Assembly (NCBI GenBank): GCA_030550015.1
Contig: JAUQQG010000053.1
Location: 1-64,000, forward strand
Reading direction: 5' to 3'
Origin: a bacterium
Lineage (GTDB): Bacteria > Sysuimicrobiota > Sysuimicrobiia > Sysuimicrobiales > Thermofontiviventaceae
DNA: 64,000 nucleotides
Under the pieces are notes generated by a model. The model ran no database searches. It had not been told where the DNA came from and worked only from the letters and a program-made list of their open reading frames with translations. Shown one piece after another: positions 1-30,949 of this stretch. Position 1 is the stretch's first letter. Every line of letters begins with the position of its first letter. Made by a program: the position numbers and the translations under genes.

Positions 1-597
1 CTCATCGGCTTCCTGGTCATGCAGCGCGTTGGCGCGGAAGTGTCCCTCCCGCTCCTTCCGATGCGCTGGAACCTGGGGTGGGCATACCCGGCGTTCGCTG
101 CCTGCTACCTTCTGGGGTTTACGAACGGGACGAACCTCACCGACGGGCTGGACGGGCTTGCGGGCGGGGTTGCGGCGCTGGCGAGTGGGGCCTACATCGT
201 CATTGCCTGGAGGATGGGGTATCCTCAGGTCGCTGTGGCAAGCGCAGCCCTCGCCGGCGCATGTTTGGCCTTCCTGTGGTACAACCGGTTCCCTGCGCGG
301 GTGTTTATGGGGGATGTGGGGTCGAATGCGATCGGTGCCGCCCTCGCAACCATCGCAATGGTTACGAAGACGGAGCTCCTCCTCGTGGTCGTCGGGGGCG
401 TCTTTGTGGCCGAGGCGCTCTCGGTGATCCTCCAGGTTGCCTATTTCAAGGCAACTGGAGGGAAACGGATCTTCCGGATGAGCCCGCTCCACCATCATTT
501 TGAGCTCGGGGGACTGGCGGAGCCGCAAGTGGTTCGCCGGTTCTGGGGAGCTGGAGCGCTTCTCGCCTTGATTGGAGTGGCGATGACAGGCTCGTAG
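1..597 (+). CDS. mraY: MraY, phospho-MurNAc-pentapeptide transferase (C-terminal part)
   Basis: The window opens inside this gene, so only the last 198 residues are present. MraY is the integral membrane enzyme that moves phospho-MurNAc-pentapeptide from UDP to undecaprenyl phosphate, giving lipid I. The family motifs are all visible: LTDGLDGLA near fragment residues 46-54, GDVGSNAIG about 100 residues into the fragment, and the HHHFE stretch near the C-terminus. Several hydrophobic helices surround them. It ends 15 bp before the murD-like gene, the usual division/cell-wall cluster order. The 5' end and promoter lie outside the window. Confidence 0.95.
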
Positions 598-612
598 GCT
601 GCGGAGGTACCA

Positions 613-2058
613 TTGTACGAACGGTTTGGTGGGAAAAACATCCATGTAGTAGGGATCTCCGGCGCTGAGGGATCTAGCGTCGTGGACTTCCTCCTGGCGT
701 CTGGGGTCAAAAGCCTCACCGCCCACGACTTCCTCAGTGGGGAGGCTTTCGCCGAGAGCTTCCGCTACCACCATGCCTGGATGTCCCCTGCGCAACAAGA
801 GGAAGCGCTGGCGCGGCTATTGGGCTACCCTATCTCCTACCGTCTGGGGGAGGAGTACCTCCGGGACATTTACGAAGCAGACCTCATCTTTCTTCCCCAG
901 GGGTGGTTCCGCTACCCCCAGAACGCCCCTCTCCACGAGGCGAGACGCCTGGGGATCCCCACAAGCAGCATGATCCGGCTGTTCTTCGAGGTTTGCCCGT
1001 GCCCCATCATCGGTGTCACGGGGACCAACGGCAAGTACACCACGGCATTCCTTGTCTACCAGATGCTTCTCCACTCCGGCTTCCGGGCCTTCTTCAGCGG
1101 GAACGACAGGACCCATGAGCCCATCCTGTATCGGGTCCACGAGCTGACCCCTGATGCATGGCTTGTCCTGGAAGTAAGCAACCGCCAGCTCCTGGACCTC
1201 CCCTATAGCCCGCATATCGCTGTCCTTACAAACATTGCCCCCCACCACCTTGACGACCACGGTTCGATGGAGGCATATGCCGCGGTCAAGGAGACCATCT
1301 TCCGCTCCCAGGGTCAGGGGGATTTCGCTATCCTTAACGCCGACAACCCCTATACCCAGGAGATGATCCCCCGCTGTACAGCCCAGGTCTTTCCTTTCAG
1401 CCGCCTGCAAAGGCTTCCTCGCGGTGCTTACCTGGATGGGGAGGAACTTGTCCTGGCAAACGGGGAGAAGTGCCGCATCCTCTCCCTCGAGGAGCTACAG
1501 GTCCGCTGGACCCACTTCATCGAAAATGCGCTCGCTGCGAGCATGGCTGCTTACCTGGCCGGCGCCTCCCTGGAGTCAATCCGCGCAGTCCTGCGCTCCT
1601 TTTCTGGCCTGCCCTACCGGATGCATCGGTTCGCGGAGGTGGATGGTGTTCAGTTCTACGAGGACTCCCTCGCCACGAACCCGACTGCTGCAGCAGCAAG
1701 CATCTCCTCCCTCCAAGGCCCGCTCCTGGTGATCGCGGGGGGTGTGCGGCCGAGAGCTACCGCGGAGGATTTCGAACCGATGGTCAAGGCCATGGGGGAG
1801 GGCCACGTCAAGACCGTGCTCCTCATTGGGAAGACGGCACCTCTGCTGGAGGAGGCGATCTCCGCGCTCCCGCCGGGGACCCGGCCCAAGGTCGTTCTGT
1901 GCGGGACGCTGGAACGGGCCGTGGAGGTGGCATGGGAGGAAGCCAGGCCCGGGGATACGGTCCTCCTCTCACCAGGTTGCGAGAGCTTTGACCAGTTCAG
2001 GGACTACCGGCAGAGGGGAGATCGCTTCCGCAGCCTCGTCCTGGAGGTGTGTAGGTGA
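613..2058 (+). CDS. murD: MurD-like UDP-MurNAc-L-Ala:D-Glu ligase with altered ATP-site residues
   Basis: A 481-residue Mur ligase in the murD position between mraY and ftsW. MurD adds D-glutamate to UDP-MurNAc-L-alanine with ATP. The TTG start at 613 has GGAGG about 6 bp upstream. Central-domain signatures are present: a P-loop at 137-143, TNIAPHHLDDHGS, and YAAVKETIF with the lysine that is carbamylated in the family. Two residues are unusual. The P-loop reads GTNGKYT, with Tyr142 where family members have Thr or Ser. The DSKATN motif reads DSLATNP, with Leu353 in place of lysine. No other D-Glu ligase is seen in this cluster, so it is probably functional, but its ATP/Mg site is non-standard. 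The stop overlaps the ftsW start. Confidence 0.85.
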   Translation: MYERFGGKNIHVVGISGAEGSSVVDFLLASGVKSLTAHDFLSGEAFAESFRYHHAWMSPAQQEEALARLLGYPISYRLGEEYLRDIYEADLIFLPQGWFRYPQNAPLHEARRLGIPTSSMIRLFFEVCPCPIIGVTGTNGKYTTAFLVYQMLLHSGFRAFFSGNDRTHEPILYRVHELTPDAWLVLEVSNRQLLDLPYSPHIAVLTNIAPHHLDDHGSMEAYAAVKETIFRSQGQGDFAILNADNPYTQEMIPRCTAQVFPFSRLQRLPRGAYLDGEELVLANGEKCRILSLEELQVRWTHFIENALAASMAAYLAGASLESIRAVLRSFSGLPYRMHRFAEVDGVQFYEDSLATNPTAAAASISSLQGPLLVIAGGVRPRATAEDFEPMVKAMGEGHVKTVLLIGKTAPLLEEAISALPPGTRPKVVLCGTLERAVEVAWEEARPGDTVLLSPGCESFDQFRDYRQRGDRFRSLVLEVCR

Positions 2059-3314
2059 GTTCCTTTTCTTCGCTCAGGACGCGATCGCCAGATTACCTCC
2101 TGTTCGGGATCGCCATGATCCTCGCGGGGATCGGGCTCGTGATCATCTACAGCGCCAGCTCGATTGTGGCCATGGAGCAATACCGGGATGCCGCCTACTT
2201 CCTGAAGCGCCAGGCTCTCTGGTTACTGGTTTCGGTCGCGGCTTGCCTCCTGGCGATGCGCGTTCCCTACACTCTGTTACGGCGCCTCACCCTGCCACTT
2301 CTGGTGCTCTCGGTTGCTGGGCTCCTCCTCGTGTTCGCCCCTGGGATCGGACACACTGCCGGTGGGGCGAGCCGTTGGATCGGATGGGGGCCGGTGCGGT
2401 TCCAGCCCGTGGAATTGGCCAAGCTGGCGTTGCTCCTTTACCTTGCTGGATTCCTCGCGGAGCGGGGCCAGGAGGTGCAGAGCTTCACCCGAGGGGTGCT
2501 TCCTCCACTCCTTGTGTTTGGAGCGATGGCAGTGCCAGTGGTAGCGCAGCCGAACCTTGGTTCCACGGCAGTGATGGCACTTGTGACGGGGTTGATGCTT
2601 TGCCTCGGGGGAGCCCGTCTCTTGCATCTTGGGGTGTTGGGAACCGGAGCTTTAGCTCTGTCCTTCCTATTGATCCTCCAGAGGGAGTACAGCCGGCGCC
2701 GCCTCCTTGCTTTCCTGGACCCAGGGGCTGATCCCCGCGGAGCGGGTTATCAGATCATCCAGTCCCTCCTGGGGTTTGGGTCGGGGGGGATCCTTGGCCT
2801 GGGGCTAGGGGAGAGCCGCCAGAAGTTCTTCTATCTCCCTGAGCGCCACACGGATTTCATCTTCTCCATCCTGGGAGAGGAGCTGGGGCTCGTCGGTGCC
2901 GGAGCGGTCCTGATCCTCTTCCTGGGATTCGTCTACAGGGGGTTCCGCATCGCCCGACTCGCCCCCAACAGGTATGCAAGCCTCCTGGCTGGAGGCATCA
3001 CTCTGACCATTGGAATCCAGGCACTCCTGAACATTGGGGTCGTGACGGGGGTTCTCCCCATCACAGGCGTTCCCCTGCCCTTCCTCAGTTACGGCGGTTC
3101 TTCCCTCCTCATGGCCATGATCGCCGTGGGGATCCTTATGAATATCTCCCAGTACATCCGGCCAGCTCCTCCACTCTGGAAGGGCCGGGGGAGACTGGAA
3201 GAGTCGAGCAGTTCCCAGGTTTCAGGTCTTGGAGGTCAGAGAAAGAGAAAAAGCAGAAGGGCGAGGGGAACGCACGAGCGACAACGGGGCAAGGAAGTGT
3301 ACACCAGGAGATGA
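2055..3314 (+). CDS. ftsW: FtsW, SEDS-family septal peptidoglycan glycosyltransferase
   Basis: A 419-residue polytopic membrane protein of the SEDS family (FtsW/RodA/SpoVE), which polymerises lipid II at the division septum together with a class B PBP. The GTG start overlaps the murD stop (GTGA). About ten hydrophobic helices are visible. The loop ESRQKFFYLPERHTDF and the late motif LPFLSYGGSS are typical of the family. The last 40 or so residues are strongly basic (many Arg/Lys) and look like a cytoplasmic tail. Position between murD and murG identifies it as FtsW rather than RodA; a separate rodA begins at 63266. Confidence 0.95.
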   Translation: MSSFSSLRTRSPDYLLFGIAMILAGIGLVIIYSASSIVAMEQYRDAAYFLKRQALWLLVSVAACLLAMRVPYTLLRRLTLPLLVLSVAGLLLVFAPGIGHTAGGASRWIGWGPVRFQPVELAKLALLLYLAGFLAERGQEVQSFTRGVLPPLLVFGAMAVPVVAQPNLGSTAVMALVTGLMLCLGGARLLHLGVLGTGALALSFLLILQREYSRRRLLAFLDPGADPRGAGYQIIQSLLGFGSGGILGLGLGESRQKFFYLPERHTDFIFSILGEELGLVGAGAVLILFLGFVYRGFRIARLAPNRYASLLAGGITLTIGIQALLNIGVVTGVLPITGVPLPFLSYGGSSLLMAMIAVGILMNISQYIRPAPPLWKGRGRLEESSSSQVSGLGGQRKRKSRRARGTHERQRGKEVYTRR

Positions 3315-4432
3315 GGATCGTCATCACAGGAGGAGGGACAGGGGGACACATCTACCCGGGCCTTGCCATCGCCGAGAGGCTTAGGGAAGAAGGGTGGACA
3401 GAGGTCCTGTTCATTGGGGGGGATCGCCTAGAGAGGGAGATCGTCCCCCGGGCAGGGGTCCCGTTCGTCTCGATTCCTGCAGCTCAGCTCCCGCGCAGGC
3501 CAGGGCCTGGCGCCATCCTTGCGCTTTTGCGGACAGCGAGAGGAGCCGTGCAGGCGGCACGCCTTTTGAGGAAGATGCGCCCGCACGCTGTCGTAGCTAC
3601 GGGAGGCTATGCCTCCGCCCCTGTGGCTCTCGCTGCACTCCTTTTGGGAATCCCTCTCTTGCTCCAAGAGCAAAACGCGCTCCCTGGTCTTACCAACAGG
3701 CTTGTGGCCCGGTGGGCTGCGCGTATCGCCGTGGCCCACGGGGAGGCAGGGAAGCTCTTTCCCCCAGGGAAGGTGGTGGTGACGGGGATCCCCATACGAC
3801 CCGCCCTCCTCTTGGGATCGCGGGAGCGGGCGCAAGTAAAGTTTGGCCTTGATCCAGAGAAAGCGACGGTCCTGGTTCTGGGGGGAAGCCAGGGTGCGCA
3901 GGTCCTGAACCGGGCGATCCTGGAGGCGCTCCCCTACTTGGACGGGCTCGGGGTCCAAGTCCTCCACCAAACCGGCACGGCGCACATCTGCTGGGTGCGT
4001 GAGGAAGCGGAGAGGTTGGGCCAACAAGGCCTCAGCGTTTCTTATGTGCCCTTCCCCTACCTTGAATTGGAGGAGATGGCGGATGCCTATGCGTCCGCCG
4101 ACCTCGTGGTCTGCCGTGCCGGAGCGACCACCCTGGCTGAAATCACCGCCGTGGGCCTCCCGGCGATCCTGGTCCCCTACCCGTATGCCGCAGAAGGCCA
4201 CCAGGAGCAGAATGCCAGGATTCTGGAAGAGGCAGGGGGGGCGGTGGTCCTCCTCCAGAACGAGCTCAACGGACCCAGGCTCGCAGGGGAGATCTCCCGG
4301 CTTCTTCGGGATCGTTCCCTCTTGCGCGCCATGGCGGATGCCAGCAAGCGTTGCGGCCGTCCCGATGCCACAAGAGAGGTAGTCCATTTGATCCTGGAGT
4401 TGGCACGGGGCGGGAGGGACGGAATGGGATGA
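3311..4432 (+). CDS. murG: MurG, lipid II synthase
   Basis: A 373-residue GT28-family glycosyltransferase that transfers GlcNAc from UDP-GlcNAc to lipid I on the inner membrane face. The N-terminal glycine-rich loop GGGTGGH is at residues 7-13. The second-domain motif GGSQGAQ and the nucleotide-binding stretch CRAGATTLAEI follow, both standard for MurG. Length is normal. The ATG start overlaps the ftsW stop by ATGA, and its own stop overlaps the murC start, so translation is likely coupled through ftsW-murG-murC-murB. Confidence 0.96.
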   Translation: MRIVITGGGTGGHIYPGLAIAERLREEGWTEVLFIGGDRLEREIVPRAGVPFVSIPAAQLPRRPGPGAILALLRTARGAVQAARLLRKMRPHAVVATGGYASAPVALAALLLGIPLLLQEQNALPGLTNRLVARWAARIAVAHGEAGKLFPPGKVVVTGIPIRPALLLGSRERAQVKFGLDPEKATVLVLGGSQGAQVLNRAILEALPYLDGLGVQVLHQTGTAHICWVREEAERLGQQGLSVSYVPFPYLELEEMADAYASADLVVCRAGATTLAEITAVGLPAILVPYPYAAEGHQEQNARILEEAGGAVVLLQNELNGPRLAGEISRLLRDRSLLRAMADASKRCGRPDATREVVHLILELARGGRDGMG

Positions 4433-5865
4433 CAAGGAAGGTCGCCGTGCAGGAGAAGATCAATCTGCCCCCCGGGGCATCCATCCACTTCGTGGGTATC
4501 GGGGGAGCTGGGATGAGCGCAATCGCACGTCTCCTCCTCGCGTGGGGCTACCGCGTCTCTGGGTCGGACATTCGTGCCTCTGAGGTAACCCGGCGCCTAG
4601 AGGCCCTGGGGGCGCGGATCAGCATTGGGCATAGCCCGGAGAACGTGGGGGAGGCCGATCTGGTCGTGGTCTCTAGAGCTATCCCCGCAGGAAACCCCGA
4701 GGTCCTCTCCGCATCCTCCCGCGGGATTCCCATCCTCCACCGTGCAGAGGTACTCGCCCGGATCCTCCAGGGAGGGTTCAGCATCGCCGTGACAGGGACC
4801 CATGGGAAGACGACAACCGCTGCCATGGTCACGGCAGTTGCCATCGCGTCGGGCCGCGACCCAACGGCGCTCATTGGGGGAGAGGTTCCTGCCTTTGGGG
4901 GGAATGCGCGCGTGGGAAGCCTAGAGACCATCATTGCCGAGGTGGACGAGAGCGACGGATCGTTCCTCTACGTCACCCCTTCGGTGGCTGTGATCACCAG
5001 TCTCGAAGCCACCGACCACCTCGACACCTATGGTGACCTCCAGACTCTCCAGGACGCGTTCCGCAGGTTCCTCTCCACCGTGGGACCATCTGGGCTCGTA
5101 GTGGGGTGCGCGGATAGCCCGGCGGTGCGGGAGCTCCTGGGCGAGATCAAAGCGAGGACCGTGAGCTATGCCCTCCATGCTCCCGCGACCTACACTGCCG
5201 CGTCCGTGGTTCTCTCGGGGCGGTCCGCTAGGTTCCTGGCGGTGCGGGAAGGCCGGTCCTTAGGAGAGGTCATCCTCCAGGTTCCAGGGAGGCACAACGT
5301 GGTCAACGCCCTGGCAGCGCTTGCAACGTCCCTCGAGCTTGGGAGCTCTTTCCATCAGGCGCGAGAAGGGCTGGCCTCGTTCTCGGGCGTCCGGCGGCGC
5401 TTTGAAATCCAGGAGTGCGGGGAGATCCTCGTCGTGGACGACTATGCCCATAATCCAACAAAGGTAAAAGCCGCGCTCCGTACAGCCCGCGAGGGATGGC
5501 CAGGGCGCCGCATCATTGCAGTCTTCCAGCCCCACCGCTACAGCCGCACCCGCACCACCTTCGCCCAGTTTGGGCCCGTCTTTGGAGATGCAGATGAGGT
5601 CATTATCACAGAGATTTACCCGGCAGACGAGCCTCCTCTCCCGGGGGTGAGTGCTAGGCTTATTGTGGACGCGGTGCAGGCGTACCGCCCCGTTCGGTAC
5701 TGTCCATCCCTGGCGGAAGCGACAGAGGAAGTGTTGCGCCTCCTGCGGCCCGGGGACCTGATCCTGACCATGGGCGCAGGGGATGTGTGGAAGGTGGCTC
5801 GGGGAGTGGCAAACCGATTGTTGGGTATTGGTTCTTCGTCTGTCGTTTCACCCATGAACCCATGA
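4429..5865 (+). CDS. murC: MurC, UDP-MurNAc:L-alanine ligase
   Basis: A 478-residue Mur ligase adding L-alanine to UDP-MurNAc. The ATG at 4429 is chosen because it overlaps the murG stop in an ATGA and gives a normal N-terminus with GIGGAGM at residues 23-29. An in-frame extension to 4351 would run deep into murG. The P-loop TGTHGKTTT (122-130) is canonical, unlike that of the murD-like gene upstream. The DDYAHNPTK and FQPHRYSRT motifs of MurC are present in the C-terminal half. The order murG-murC-murB-ftsQ matches Gram-positive and deep-branching cell-wall clusters. Confidence 0.95.
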   Translation: MTRKVAVQEKINLPPGASIHFVGIGGAGMSAIARLLLAWGYRVSGSDIRASEVTRRLEALGARISIGHSPENVGEADLVVVSRAIPAGNPEVLSASSRGIPILHRAEVLARILQGGFSIAVTGTHGKTTTAAMVTAVAIASGRDPTALIGGEVPAFGGNARVGSLETIIAEVDESDGSFLYVTPSVAVITSLEATDHLDTYGDLQTLQDAFRRFLSTVGPSGLVVGCADSPAVRELLGEIKARTVSYALHAPATYTAASVVLSGRSARFLAVREGRSLGEVILQVPGRHNVVNALAALATSLELGSSFHQAREGLASFSGVRRRFEIQECGEILVVDDYAHNPTKVKAALRTAREGWPGRRIIAVFQPHRYSRTRTTFAQFGPVFGDADEVIITEIYPADEPPLPGVSARLIVDAVQAYRPVRYCPSLAEATEEVLRLLRPGDLILTMGAGDVWKVARGVANRLLGIGSSSVVSPMNP

Positions 5866-28938: not shown

Positions 28939-29841
28939 ATGCGCGGGAGGATCCGGGTCGCGGCGGTGCAGCTGGAAGCCAGGCGTTACCGGGATCCTGA
29001 GGAGTACTTCCGAGGGATGTCGGCTGTTCTGGATCAGGCGGGGGAAGTGGACCTCGTCGTCTTCCCCGCGTACACCGGGCTGATGTTGCTGGAAGCTGTT
29101 GTACGAGAGCCTCTCACCCTGGACAGATCGCTGGTGGGGCACGTAGAAGCCTGGGGGCAGGAGTTACTCCAGCTCTTCCGGGAGGGTTGGGGCTCCTTGG
29201 CTAAGGCCAGGGGGCTCTTCCTTGTTGCGGGGACCGTTCCCATCCTTAAGGAGGGGAGGTACTTCCACGCCGCGGTCTTGTTGGCCCCCGATGGGGGCGT
29301 TGTAGGAACCCAGCCCCAGACCCACCTCCTCCCTTGGGAACGGGAGATCGGGTGGAGCGCGGGGACAGAACTCCATACCTTCCCCACCGAAGTCGGCCCT
29401 CTGGGGATCCTGGTCAACACCGATACCTGGTATCCAGAGGTGAGTCGGATCCTTTCCCTCCAGGGGGCAGCGCTCTTGCTCGCCGTGAATGCTGTTCCAA
29501 AGCCATATGCCTACTGGCACCAGGTTCGTGGCCTCTGGCAGGAGGTCCAGCAGAACCAGGTGTTCGGGGTGGAGAGCGGGCTGGTGGGAAGCGCCTTTGG
29601 GAGGGAGTTTGAGGGGAGGACGGCAGCTTTTGGCCCTTGCGAGGCGACCCCAGGGGAGACAGGCTGGATGGGAACCCTGGAAGACCCCACACATCCAGGG
29701 GTACTTACCGTGGAACTCTCCTACGCCCGCCTGCAGGAGGTTATCGATCAGTATTCTGTCTTCGCGCAGTTCCACTATGGTCTGTACGACCGGTTCCTGC
29801 CGAGCATCTACTTCCTGGGGGCACCGCCGGAGGCGGGGTGA
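28939..29841 (+). CDS. Nitrilase-fold protein lacking the catalytic triad (pseudoenzyme?)
   Basis: A 300-residue protein that clearly has the carbon-nitrogen hydrolase fold (IRVAAVQLEA opening, LVVFPAYTG, GTQPQTHLL, ILVNTDTWYPE). The catalytic Glu-Lys-Cys positions are all changed. FPE is FPA (Ala44), the lysine site is Gln127, and the cysteine site is Asn160. Alignment with the intact neighbour at 29846 fixes these positions. The fold core is otherwise well kept, so decay to a random pseudogene is unlikely. It may be a regulatory or structural partner of the active paralogue, or use other chemistry. It ends 4 bp before that gene. Confidence 0.82.
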   Translation: MRGRIRVAAVQLEARRYRDPEEYFRGMSAVLDQAGEVDLVVFPAYTGLMLLEAVVREPLTLDRSLVGHVEAWGQELLQLFREGWGSLAKARGLFLVAGTVPILKEGRYFHAAVLLAPDGGVVGTQPQTHLLPWEREIGWSAGTELHTFPTEVGPLGILVNTDTWYPEVSRILSLQGAALLLAVNAVPKPYAYWHQVRGLWQEVQQNQVFGVESGLVGSAFGREFEGRTAAFGPCEATPGETGWMGTLEDPTHPGVLTVELSYARLQEVIDQYSVFAQFHYGLYDRFLPSIYFLGAPPEAG

Positions 29842-29845
29842 TCAT

Positions 29846-30949
29846 GTGGAGGTGAAGGGGGTACTGCTGGCACGTGCGCTGAGATCCCTGCTGTGGTGGA
29901 GGTCGGCGGGGTGGCGCATCCACAGGGTGTTGCGGAGGAAGCGGATCACCCGCAGCCGTGCTTGCGACGATCTTCCTTCTCCCAGGGTGCGCGTTGCGGC
30001 GGTCCAGATGGAGTTGAAGGCGTTGCGATCTGCGGAGGAATACGCCGAAAAGGTGTACGGGCTCATGGTCCAGGCTGTCCAGCAAGGTGCGCATCTCGTG
30101 GTCTTCCCCGAGGATAGCGGGACCCATCTCGTGGGGCTCCTCCCAGGCATCGCCGATCTTCCTCCCGACCTCCCCGTGGAGGATGCCCTGGCACAGGTGG
30201 GTGGACCGGAGATTCGGGTGGCGGAGATCTTCCGGACCATCGGCCCTGCGGTGAGGAGGATCTATGAAACCACCTTTTCCTTCCTCGCCCGCGCATTTGG
30301 GGTTTATGTAGTCACTGGGAGTGCCCTTCTTCCCGACGAGCAGGGCAACGTCAGGAACATCGCCTACTTCTACGGCCCCGACGGTAGGATCATCGGGACG
30401 CACGCCAAGTGCCATCTCATCCAGCTTGAGGCGCGATGGGGACTCGTCCCAGGCGACGACCTCCGGGTATACCGGACGCCGGTGGGGAACCTTGCCTTCC
30501 CCATCTGCATGGACCGGACCTACTTTGAGACGACGCGCATCCTGCGCCTCCTCGGGGCTGACCTCATCCTCGTCCCGAGCGCTGATCCTGACCCGTTCAA
30601 TTTCTGGAAGAAGTGGAGGGGGACCTGGCCCAGGGTCCAGGAGACCCAGGTCTATGGGGTGGACGCTTTCATGGTGGGCCGCTTCATGGGGCTGACGATT
30701 ACTGGAAGGAGCGCCGTGTACGCTCCCATCGAGCTCACATCGGACGGCACAGGGGTACTTTCCAAGGCGAGGACGTTTGACCAAGAGGAGGTTGTTGTGG
30801 GGGAGATCGATTACGCGTTGCTGGAGGAGGTCCGCAGGGCATTCCCTGTGGAGGCGGGGTTCAACCTGGAGCTGTACAAGCGGTATTTCCCCCGCGTCTA
30901 CCACGAGTACCGTGCGCGCACGGGCACACATCGGAGGATCTTCCCCTGA
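29846..30949 (+). CDS. Carbon-nitrogen hydrolase (nitrilase superfamily), intact triad
   Basis: A 367-residue nitrilase-superfamily amidohydrolase. The triad is complete: Glu89 (VVFPED), Lys188 (HAKCHL) and Cys221 (PICMDRTYFE). A basic N-terminal extension of about 50 residues precedes the hydrolase domain. The GTG at 29846 is chosen because GGAGGCGGGG lies at proper spacing; GTG 29852 is an alternative. The enzyme should hydrolyse an amide, carbamoyl or nitrile compound, but which one is unknown. It lies next to an MFS transporter and its triad-less paralogue. Confidence 0.86.
   Translation: MEVKGVLLARALRSLLWWRSAGWRIHRVLRRKRITRSRACDDLPSPRVRVAAVQMELKALRSAEEYAEKVYGLMVQAVQQGAHLVVFPEDSGTHLVGLLPGIADLPPDLPVEDALAQVGGPEIRVAEIFRTIGPAVRRIYETTFSFLARAFGVYVVTGSALLPDEQGNVRNIAYFYGPDGRIIGTHAKCHLIQLEARWGLVPGDDLRVYRTPVGNLAFPICMDRTYFETTRILRLLGADLILVPSADPDPFNFWKKWRGTWPRVQETQVYGVDAFMVGRFMGLTITGRSAVYAPIELTSDGTGVLSKARTFDQEEVVVGEIDYALLEEVRRAFPVEAGFNLELYKRYFPRVYHEYRARTGTHRRIFP

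Follow-up and report, generated by a model that had tools for sequence, protein, structure and literature searches.

A class-wide variant of the peptidoglycan ligase MurD with a probably rebuilt active site in the Sysuimicrobiia

The window, by which we mean the whole stretch of 64,000 nucleotides that was analyzed (contig JAUQQG010000053.1, positions 1 to 64,000), opens with peptidoglycan genes in the order mraY-murD-ftsW-murG-murC-murB, where murB was assigned by position and by eye (Table 1). The MurD protein scored 283.4 bits against the NCBIfam murD family (TIGR01087; cut-off, 211.95), and Pfam matched only its middle and C-terminal Mur domains. Its AlphaFold2 model (mean pLDDT, 90.1) aligned over its whole length with E. 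coli MurD 8vw0 (Z 38.1, rmsd 2.8, 430 residues), the best-matching chains were those of MurD, and the likeness spanned all three domains, including the N-terminal stretch that lies outside the TIGR01087 match. No Rfam family was matched in the window. Farther along the window, two adjacent overlapping reading frames (28939-29841 and 29489-30949) both appeared nitrilase/carbon-nitrogen hydrolase-like by eye.

Table 1. Genes and residue features of the murD locus, with positions in the window
Feature	Positions	Strand	Comment
mraY, 3' part	1..597	+	gene start lies before the window; operon order and comparison with E. coli MraY
murD	613..2058	+	TTG start, 481 aa; NCBIfam TIGR01087 match and AlphaFold2 model
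P-loop GTNGKYT, residues 137-143	1021..1041	+	Tyr142 is TAC at 1036-1038
Pro95-Gln96	895..900	+	stands for Ser-Pro of the SPG loop (E. coli 71-72)
Ser-Asn-Arg-Gln, 189-192	1177..1188	+	stands for Ser-Ser-Phe-Gln (E. coli 159-162)
His-His-Leu-Asp-Asp, 211-215	1243..1257	+	metal histidine kept as His212; E. coli Asp182 and Arg186 switched to His211 and Asp215
Lys226	1288..1290	+	equivalent of E. coli Lys198; Lys in 39/39 class rows
Asp-Ser-Leu-Ala-Thr-Asn (DSLATN), 351-356	1663..1680	+	Leu353 is CTC at 1669-1671, in place of E. coli Lys319 (DSKATN)
Arg379-Pro380-Arg381	1747..1755	+	at the Gly347-Lys348 place (glutamate carboxylate site)
Glu457-Ser458-Phe459	1981..1989	+	Glu for Ala414; Ser415 kept
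ftsW	2055..3314	+	ORF list and family comparison
murG	3311..4432	+	ORF list and family comparison
murC	4351..5865	+	longest frame, real start probably later; NCBIfam TIGR01082, 493.6 bits (cut-off, 335.1)

A sequence-only reading that preceded this work had placed a murD in its canonical position here and had pointed to Tyr142 in the P-loop and Leu353 in place of the DSKATN lysine; all three observations were confirmed. To describe these and other positions, we use E. coli MurD numbers as in the literature, which lie one below the gene numbering (checked against K-12 MurD), and our own handles for genomes (G), contigs (C) and loci (L). Searches of the class and of the phylum returned the same 43 genomes, all of one order, a pattern that would fit the description of Sysuimicrobiota in PMC11604079 as a phylum with a single class and a single order. 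TIGR01087 was passed in 39 of them, with one copy each, and exactly one murD match at E <= 1e-40 was present in 40, one of these being a fragment at a contig end (G032). The three genomes without such a match (G002, G040 and G042) are 89, 69 and 68% complete, respectively. Comparisons were made between 39 distinct class MurDs, one per genome with G032 left out, and 120 outside MurDs, consisting of the best 80 of 524 confirmed proteins and 40 from the 192 outside genomes matched at E <= 1e-45, the latter picked mostly from the top of the 192-genome list.

The residue that follows the P-loop lysine (Lys+1), the sole departing residue of that motif, was Phe in 37 and Tyr in 2 of the 39 class MurDs, versus Thr in 90, Ser in 29 and Gly in 1 of the 120 outside proteins, none of which had an aromatic residue. 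Position 319 was Leu in all 39 class members, versus Lys in 117, Thr in 2 and Met in 1 outside. A sequencing error or an oddity of a single genome was ruled out, as the switches occur in 39/39 distinct class MurDs. Further switches, beyond those first noticed, were found at positions 72, 160, 161, 182, 186, 268, 347, 348 and 414. Every class row has Gln at 72 (Pro in 118/120 outside rows), Asn-Arg at 160-161 (outside, Ser160 in 117/120 and an aromatic 161 in 119/120), Asp for Arg at 186 and Arg at 347. Position 182 is His in 38 of the 39 and Asn in 1; Asn268 is replaced by Met, Ala, Thr or others; position 348, Lys in E. coli, is Pro in 19, Arg in 16 and something else in 4; and Ala414 is Glu in all 38 rows that have a letter there. 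Positions 182 and 348 vary among outside MurDs as well, 182 being neither Asp nor Asn in 11/120 and 348 not Lys in 12/120.

Every class row with a letter at the position in question keeps Lys115, Thr117, Asn138, Glu157, Ser159, Gln162, His183, Tyr194, Lys198, Asn271, Arg302, Asp317, Ser318, Thr321, Ser415 and Arg425, and by this alignment the catalytic core is retained. Lys226 of the window protein corresponds to Lys198 of E. coli MurD, a lysine that undergoes carbamylation. Relative to canonical MurD (E. coli 4uag, 2jfg and 8vw0; TIGR01087), the class thus shares a like fold, the operon place and the catalytic Lys, Glu, His, Lys, Asp, Thr and Ser, but differs in Phe or Tyr at Lys+1, Leu for Lys319, SNRQ for SSFQ, HH for DH, HLDD for HLDR, a lost SPG loop and changes at 347/348 and 414. 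A non-catalytic relic, or an artefact of sequencing, might be read from the absence of two residues commonly cited as binding ATP and substrate; with the core invariant, one copy per genome and frames open throughout except for a broken one in G041 and the fragment in G032, we regard this as next to impossible.

As one way to account for the unusual residues, it had been suggested that a second MurD exists elsewhere and that this one has a changed role. This found no support. Among the 40 class genomes in which murD was matched (E <= 1e-40), none showed a second MurD, and the six Mur_ligase_M matches in the window's own genome are MurC and MurE (named by NCBIfam), MurF (named by tandem position and motif), a MurT-like protein, a FolC-like protein and the window MurD itself. 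The sequence-only reading had also reasoned that a broad set of proven MurDs with the same residues would make the change an ordinary family variant. Many class orthologs do share them, although none is known to us as a proven enzyme, and we know of no assayed MurD that carries them. As judged by titles and abstract openings, no paper was found in the collection searched on a MurD with an aromatic P-loop residue or a Lys-to-Leu change, and nothing on Lys319, Lys348 or Ser116 was found in the part of PMC4816537 that was available. We regard this as a real, lineage-wide MurD variant.

To see whether MurD stands out, a site was counted as lost when 85% or more of the outside rows conserved it but no more than 10% of class rows kept it. 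The count took in 12 class genomes and a maximum of 40 outside rows, E. coli among them, with G146, a relative described below, left out. By this measure, the class lost 17 of 86 conserved sites in MurD, compared to 6/94 in MurC, 1/92 in MurE, 1/52 in MurF, 1/47 in MurG, 4/79 in MraY and 0/44 in FtsW, and MurD is therefore selectively remodeled. The earlier claim that the P-loop change is specific to MurD, which cited a canonical MurC in the same operon, held in part. The MurC of the window does have GTHGKTT, and the P-loop Thr is kept in 12/12 class MurC proteins and in 11/12 MurF rows, the motif pattern having found none in the last. In MurE, however, Lys+1 is Gly in 9 of the 12 class genomes (GTNGKGT, GTNGKGA or GTNGKGV; own genome, L082; others, L071-L081) and Thr in the other 3; outside the class, every MurE row with a letter at this position has Thr or Ser, including that of E. 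coli. In class MurC, 12/12 proteins have Asn for His355 and Lys for Glu358 (E. coli numbering) in the region of the C-terminal DDYAH motif.

The MurE result suggests that the P-loop hydroxyl is probably dispensable in these cells. It would also suit neutral or inhibitor-driven drift in an otherwise ordinary MurD, where the switches would leave the substrate unchanged and could at most shift inhibitor sensitivity or metal preference, as a sister enzyme of the same cells seems able to do without the hydroxyl. Changes due to drift should be scattered, yet the MurD switches are fixed in 39 genomes while the neighboring Mur proteins have retained the majority of their conserved sites, and we consider this explanation quite improbable.

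Several of the switched positions have published roles. In HiMurC, Thr130 at Lys+1 and Glu173 are Mg1 ligands, according to the available part of PMC3060825. The Mg1 glutamate is followed by a residue pair, made up of serines in MurD but of acidic residues in MurC, that lies at Mg2 and the acceptor carboxylate together with a conserved histidine (PMC6085368, available part). In closed E. coli MurD, Lys319 nears or touches ADP and UDP-MurNAc-L-Ala (PMC4652230), and glutamate mimics bind Lys348, Thr321, Ser415 and Phe422 (PMC3527612), as stated in the accessible portions of these papers. Because the class switches fall on these positions, both metal sites and the glutamate site appear to be altered while the core is kept. 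The idea that ATP binding is altered, raised by the sequence-only reading, gains support in the same way, as the lost hydroxyl would sit at the place that binds Mg1 in MurC and Lys319 is the residue described as touching ADP.

The predicted fold, operon place, single copy, retained core and class-wide fixation of the switches were all seen, and we consider it likely that this protein is the lineage's only MurD and still catalyzes the MurD step, on UDP-MurNAc-L-Ala, glutamate and ATP, with a rebuilt active site. In such an enzyme, Lys141 and Thr143 would still hold the phosphates and Glu187 would still hold Mg1, which would do without a P-loop hydroxyl ligand, its place being filled by Phe or Tyr142. 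The second metal and acceptor-carboxylate site would be re-cut by the changes of Ser160 to Asn and Asp182 to His. Arg191 (E. coli Phe161) would supply positive charge from the central domain, standing in for Lys319, and we propose that the loss of Lys319 is tolerated because this charge is already provided. The end product is probably ordinary, since nearly all conserved sites of MurE are kept and MurT is present (see below).

The order in which the changes arose was approached with a tree of 160 proteins (FastTree, approximate supports), in which the class was monophyletic (0.992) and was joined by the MurD of G146, a genome of another phylum (1.0), with L110, L197, L199 and L235 as the next branches (0.978). 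The G146 protein shares the SNRQ/HLDD part with the class (Gln72, Asn160, Arg161 and Asp186) but still has the P-loop Ser116, Asp182, Asn268, Lys319 and Lys348. As G146 has only the former set, the SNRQ/HLDD part is older and the changes at the P-loop, 182, 268, 319 and 347-348 are later; the active-site rebuild probably predates the class in part. This order, from Arg with Lys in G146 to Arg with Lys lost in the class, suits the proposal that Arg161 made Lys319 dispensable. Against such compensation stand two outside MurDs, L110 and L235, which changed Lys319 to Thr while keeping Trp or Phe at 161. A search of the G146 genome with its own MurD gave no second MurD at E <= 1e-20, while as a control the ordinary MurD of a phylum-mate (G282) was matched at 1.3e-59. 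No other Mur gene was present in the 20 kb read around the G146 murD (L196:9416-10904), which by eye adjoins a gene for a PLP-dependent enzyme resembling threonine synthase; a gene that resembles alanine racemase lies some 5 kb farther along.

The same reaction with another geometry is not the sole fit to these data, because the switches fall on published determinants of glutamate chirality. As reported in the available part of PMC8788868, the K319T exchange lets E. coli MurD accept L-Glu, the first time that the chirality of this enzyme had been altered; the E197D/R358K exchange in Xanthomonas MurD2 (E. coli positions 182 and 348) turns its specificity from L-Glu to D-Glu; and E. coli D182E/K348R gave no acceptance of L-Glu. 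The assay with L- and D-amino acids that the sequence-only reading had proposed is, in light of K319T, well aimed. The class is changed at all three positions, 182, 319 and 348. It also resembles MurD2 in which glutamate-site positions differ (182, 348, 414 and 416), with His, Pro/Arg, Glu and Phe in the class versus Glu, Arg, Pro and Phe in MurD2 by its published description (PMC8788868). Based on these precedents, together with the Arg at 347, the class MurD might add L-Glu like MurD2, with an independent origin, and a so far unknown epimerase would then produce D-Glu on the nucleotide, or L-Glu would be kept.

The supply of glutamate was surveyed in the same 43 genomes. MurI (TIGR00067) was over the cut-off in 0/43, with weak central matches in 30. 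MurL (NF041275) was likewise over the cut-off in none, by a model that is named for Xanthomonadales and that a distant MurL could escape; weak matches of 33-43 residues (E 9.5e-4 or worse) in 13/43 genomes read as a PP-loop-like stretch. A racemase of the Asp/Glu type (TIGR00035) passed in 33/43 genomes and was unrecognized in 4 of the 28 good ones, including the window's own, where the single Aminotran_4 protein is named as a branched-chain aminotransferase. The best NCBIfam name for an example of this racemase was cysteate racemase CuyB (267.1 bits; cut-off, 190). Given the four good genomes in which it was unrecognized, this racemase is a candidate rather than a certain source of D-Glu. By eye, its gene is flanked on one side by the 3' end of an ileS-like gene and on the other by a TraR/DksA-like gene that is followed by lspA (L065-L070, e.g., L065:1219-1992); in many genomes it shares a contig with murD, at a distance of about 30 kb. 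MurT_C was found in 40/43 class genomes and in 28/28 good ones, and contig C97 of the own genome (L005:1318-3561) carries adjacent MurT-like and GatD-like genes, the GatD match being below the curated cut-off. MurT amidates the D-Glu of lipid II, and the MurT-like/GatD-like pair implies amidated D-Glu in the wall. Taken with the ordinary conservation of MurE, this argues for D-Glu in the completed stem peptide, no matter which isomer is used by MurD.

The absence of a recognizable MurI, with neither a TIGR00035 racemase nor a second Aminotran_4 protein in the own genome, would fit addition of L-Glu. As proof of L-Glu use, however, this was dropped, since 10 of 21 control genomes whose MurD keeps Lys319 also had no MurI over the cut-off. 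Conversely, MurI is present in G102 (Thr319) and G171 (Met319), which have lost Lys319; the small genome that holds L110 (Thr319) has none. MurL in 0/43 genomes and a racemase in 33/43 further argue against this route, as do the variation of 182 and 348 in ordinary MurDs and a MurE that looks ordinary. The class gene also differs from the MurD2/MurL route in lying in the dcw cluster. L-Glu use by the class MurD is thus not favored, and we hold it to be unlikely; that the whole class has an L-Glu-stereospecific MurD, which arose independently of the Xanthomonas enzyme MurD2 and works together with an epimerase that is not related to MurL, is slightly more doubtful. Altered stereospecificity nevertheless stays a modest possibility. 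Other sources of D-Glu have precedents, in DapF of Chlamydia (PMC5885031) and in a D-amino acid transaminase/ADC lyase of Mycobacterium (PMC8105722), each as described in the available part of the source.

The missing MurI, the changed glutamate site and the CuyB-like racemase of the conserved ileS-lspA locus could also be combined, if MurD were to add another acidic amino acid supplied by that racemase, such as D-Asp or D-cysteate. This we consider highly improbable, given the good genomes in which the racemase was unrecognized, own genome included, the presence of MurT in every good genome and the kept sites of MurE. Overall, we conclude that the class has a genuine MurD variant, which probably uses a rebuilt site to carry out the ordinary step.

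MurD is an essential, nearly invariant enzyme and a drug target, and here a whole lineage has fixed residues unlike those usually described for Mg-ATP and substrate binding. As published work makes Lys319 a point at which glutamate chirality is controlled, the substrate preference of the class enzyme is worth asking about, and the class raises the question of where D-Glu comes from where no MurI is recognizable. The 39 orthologs and the intermediate G146 form a natural mutational series, in which the need for the P-loop hydroxyl and for Lys319, and the setting of glutamate chirality, may be followed.
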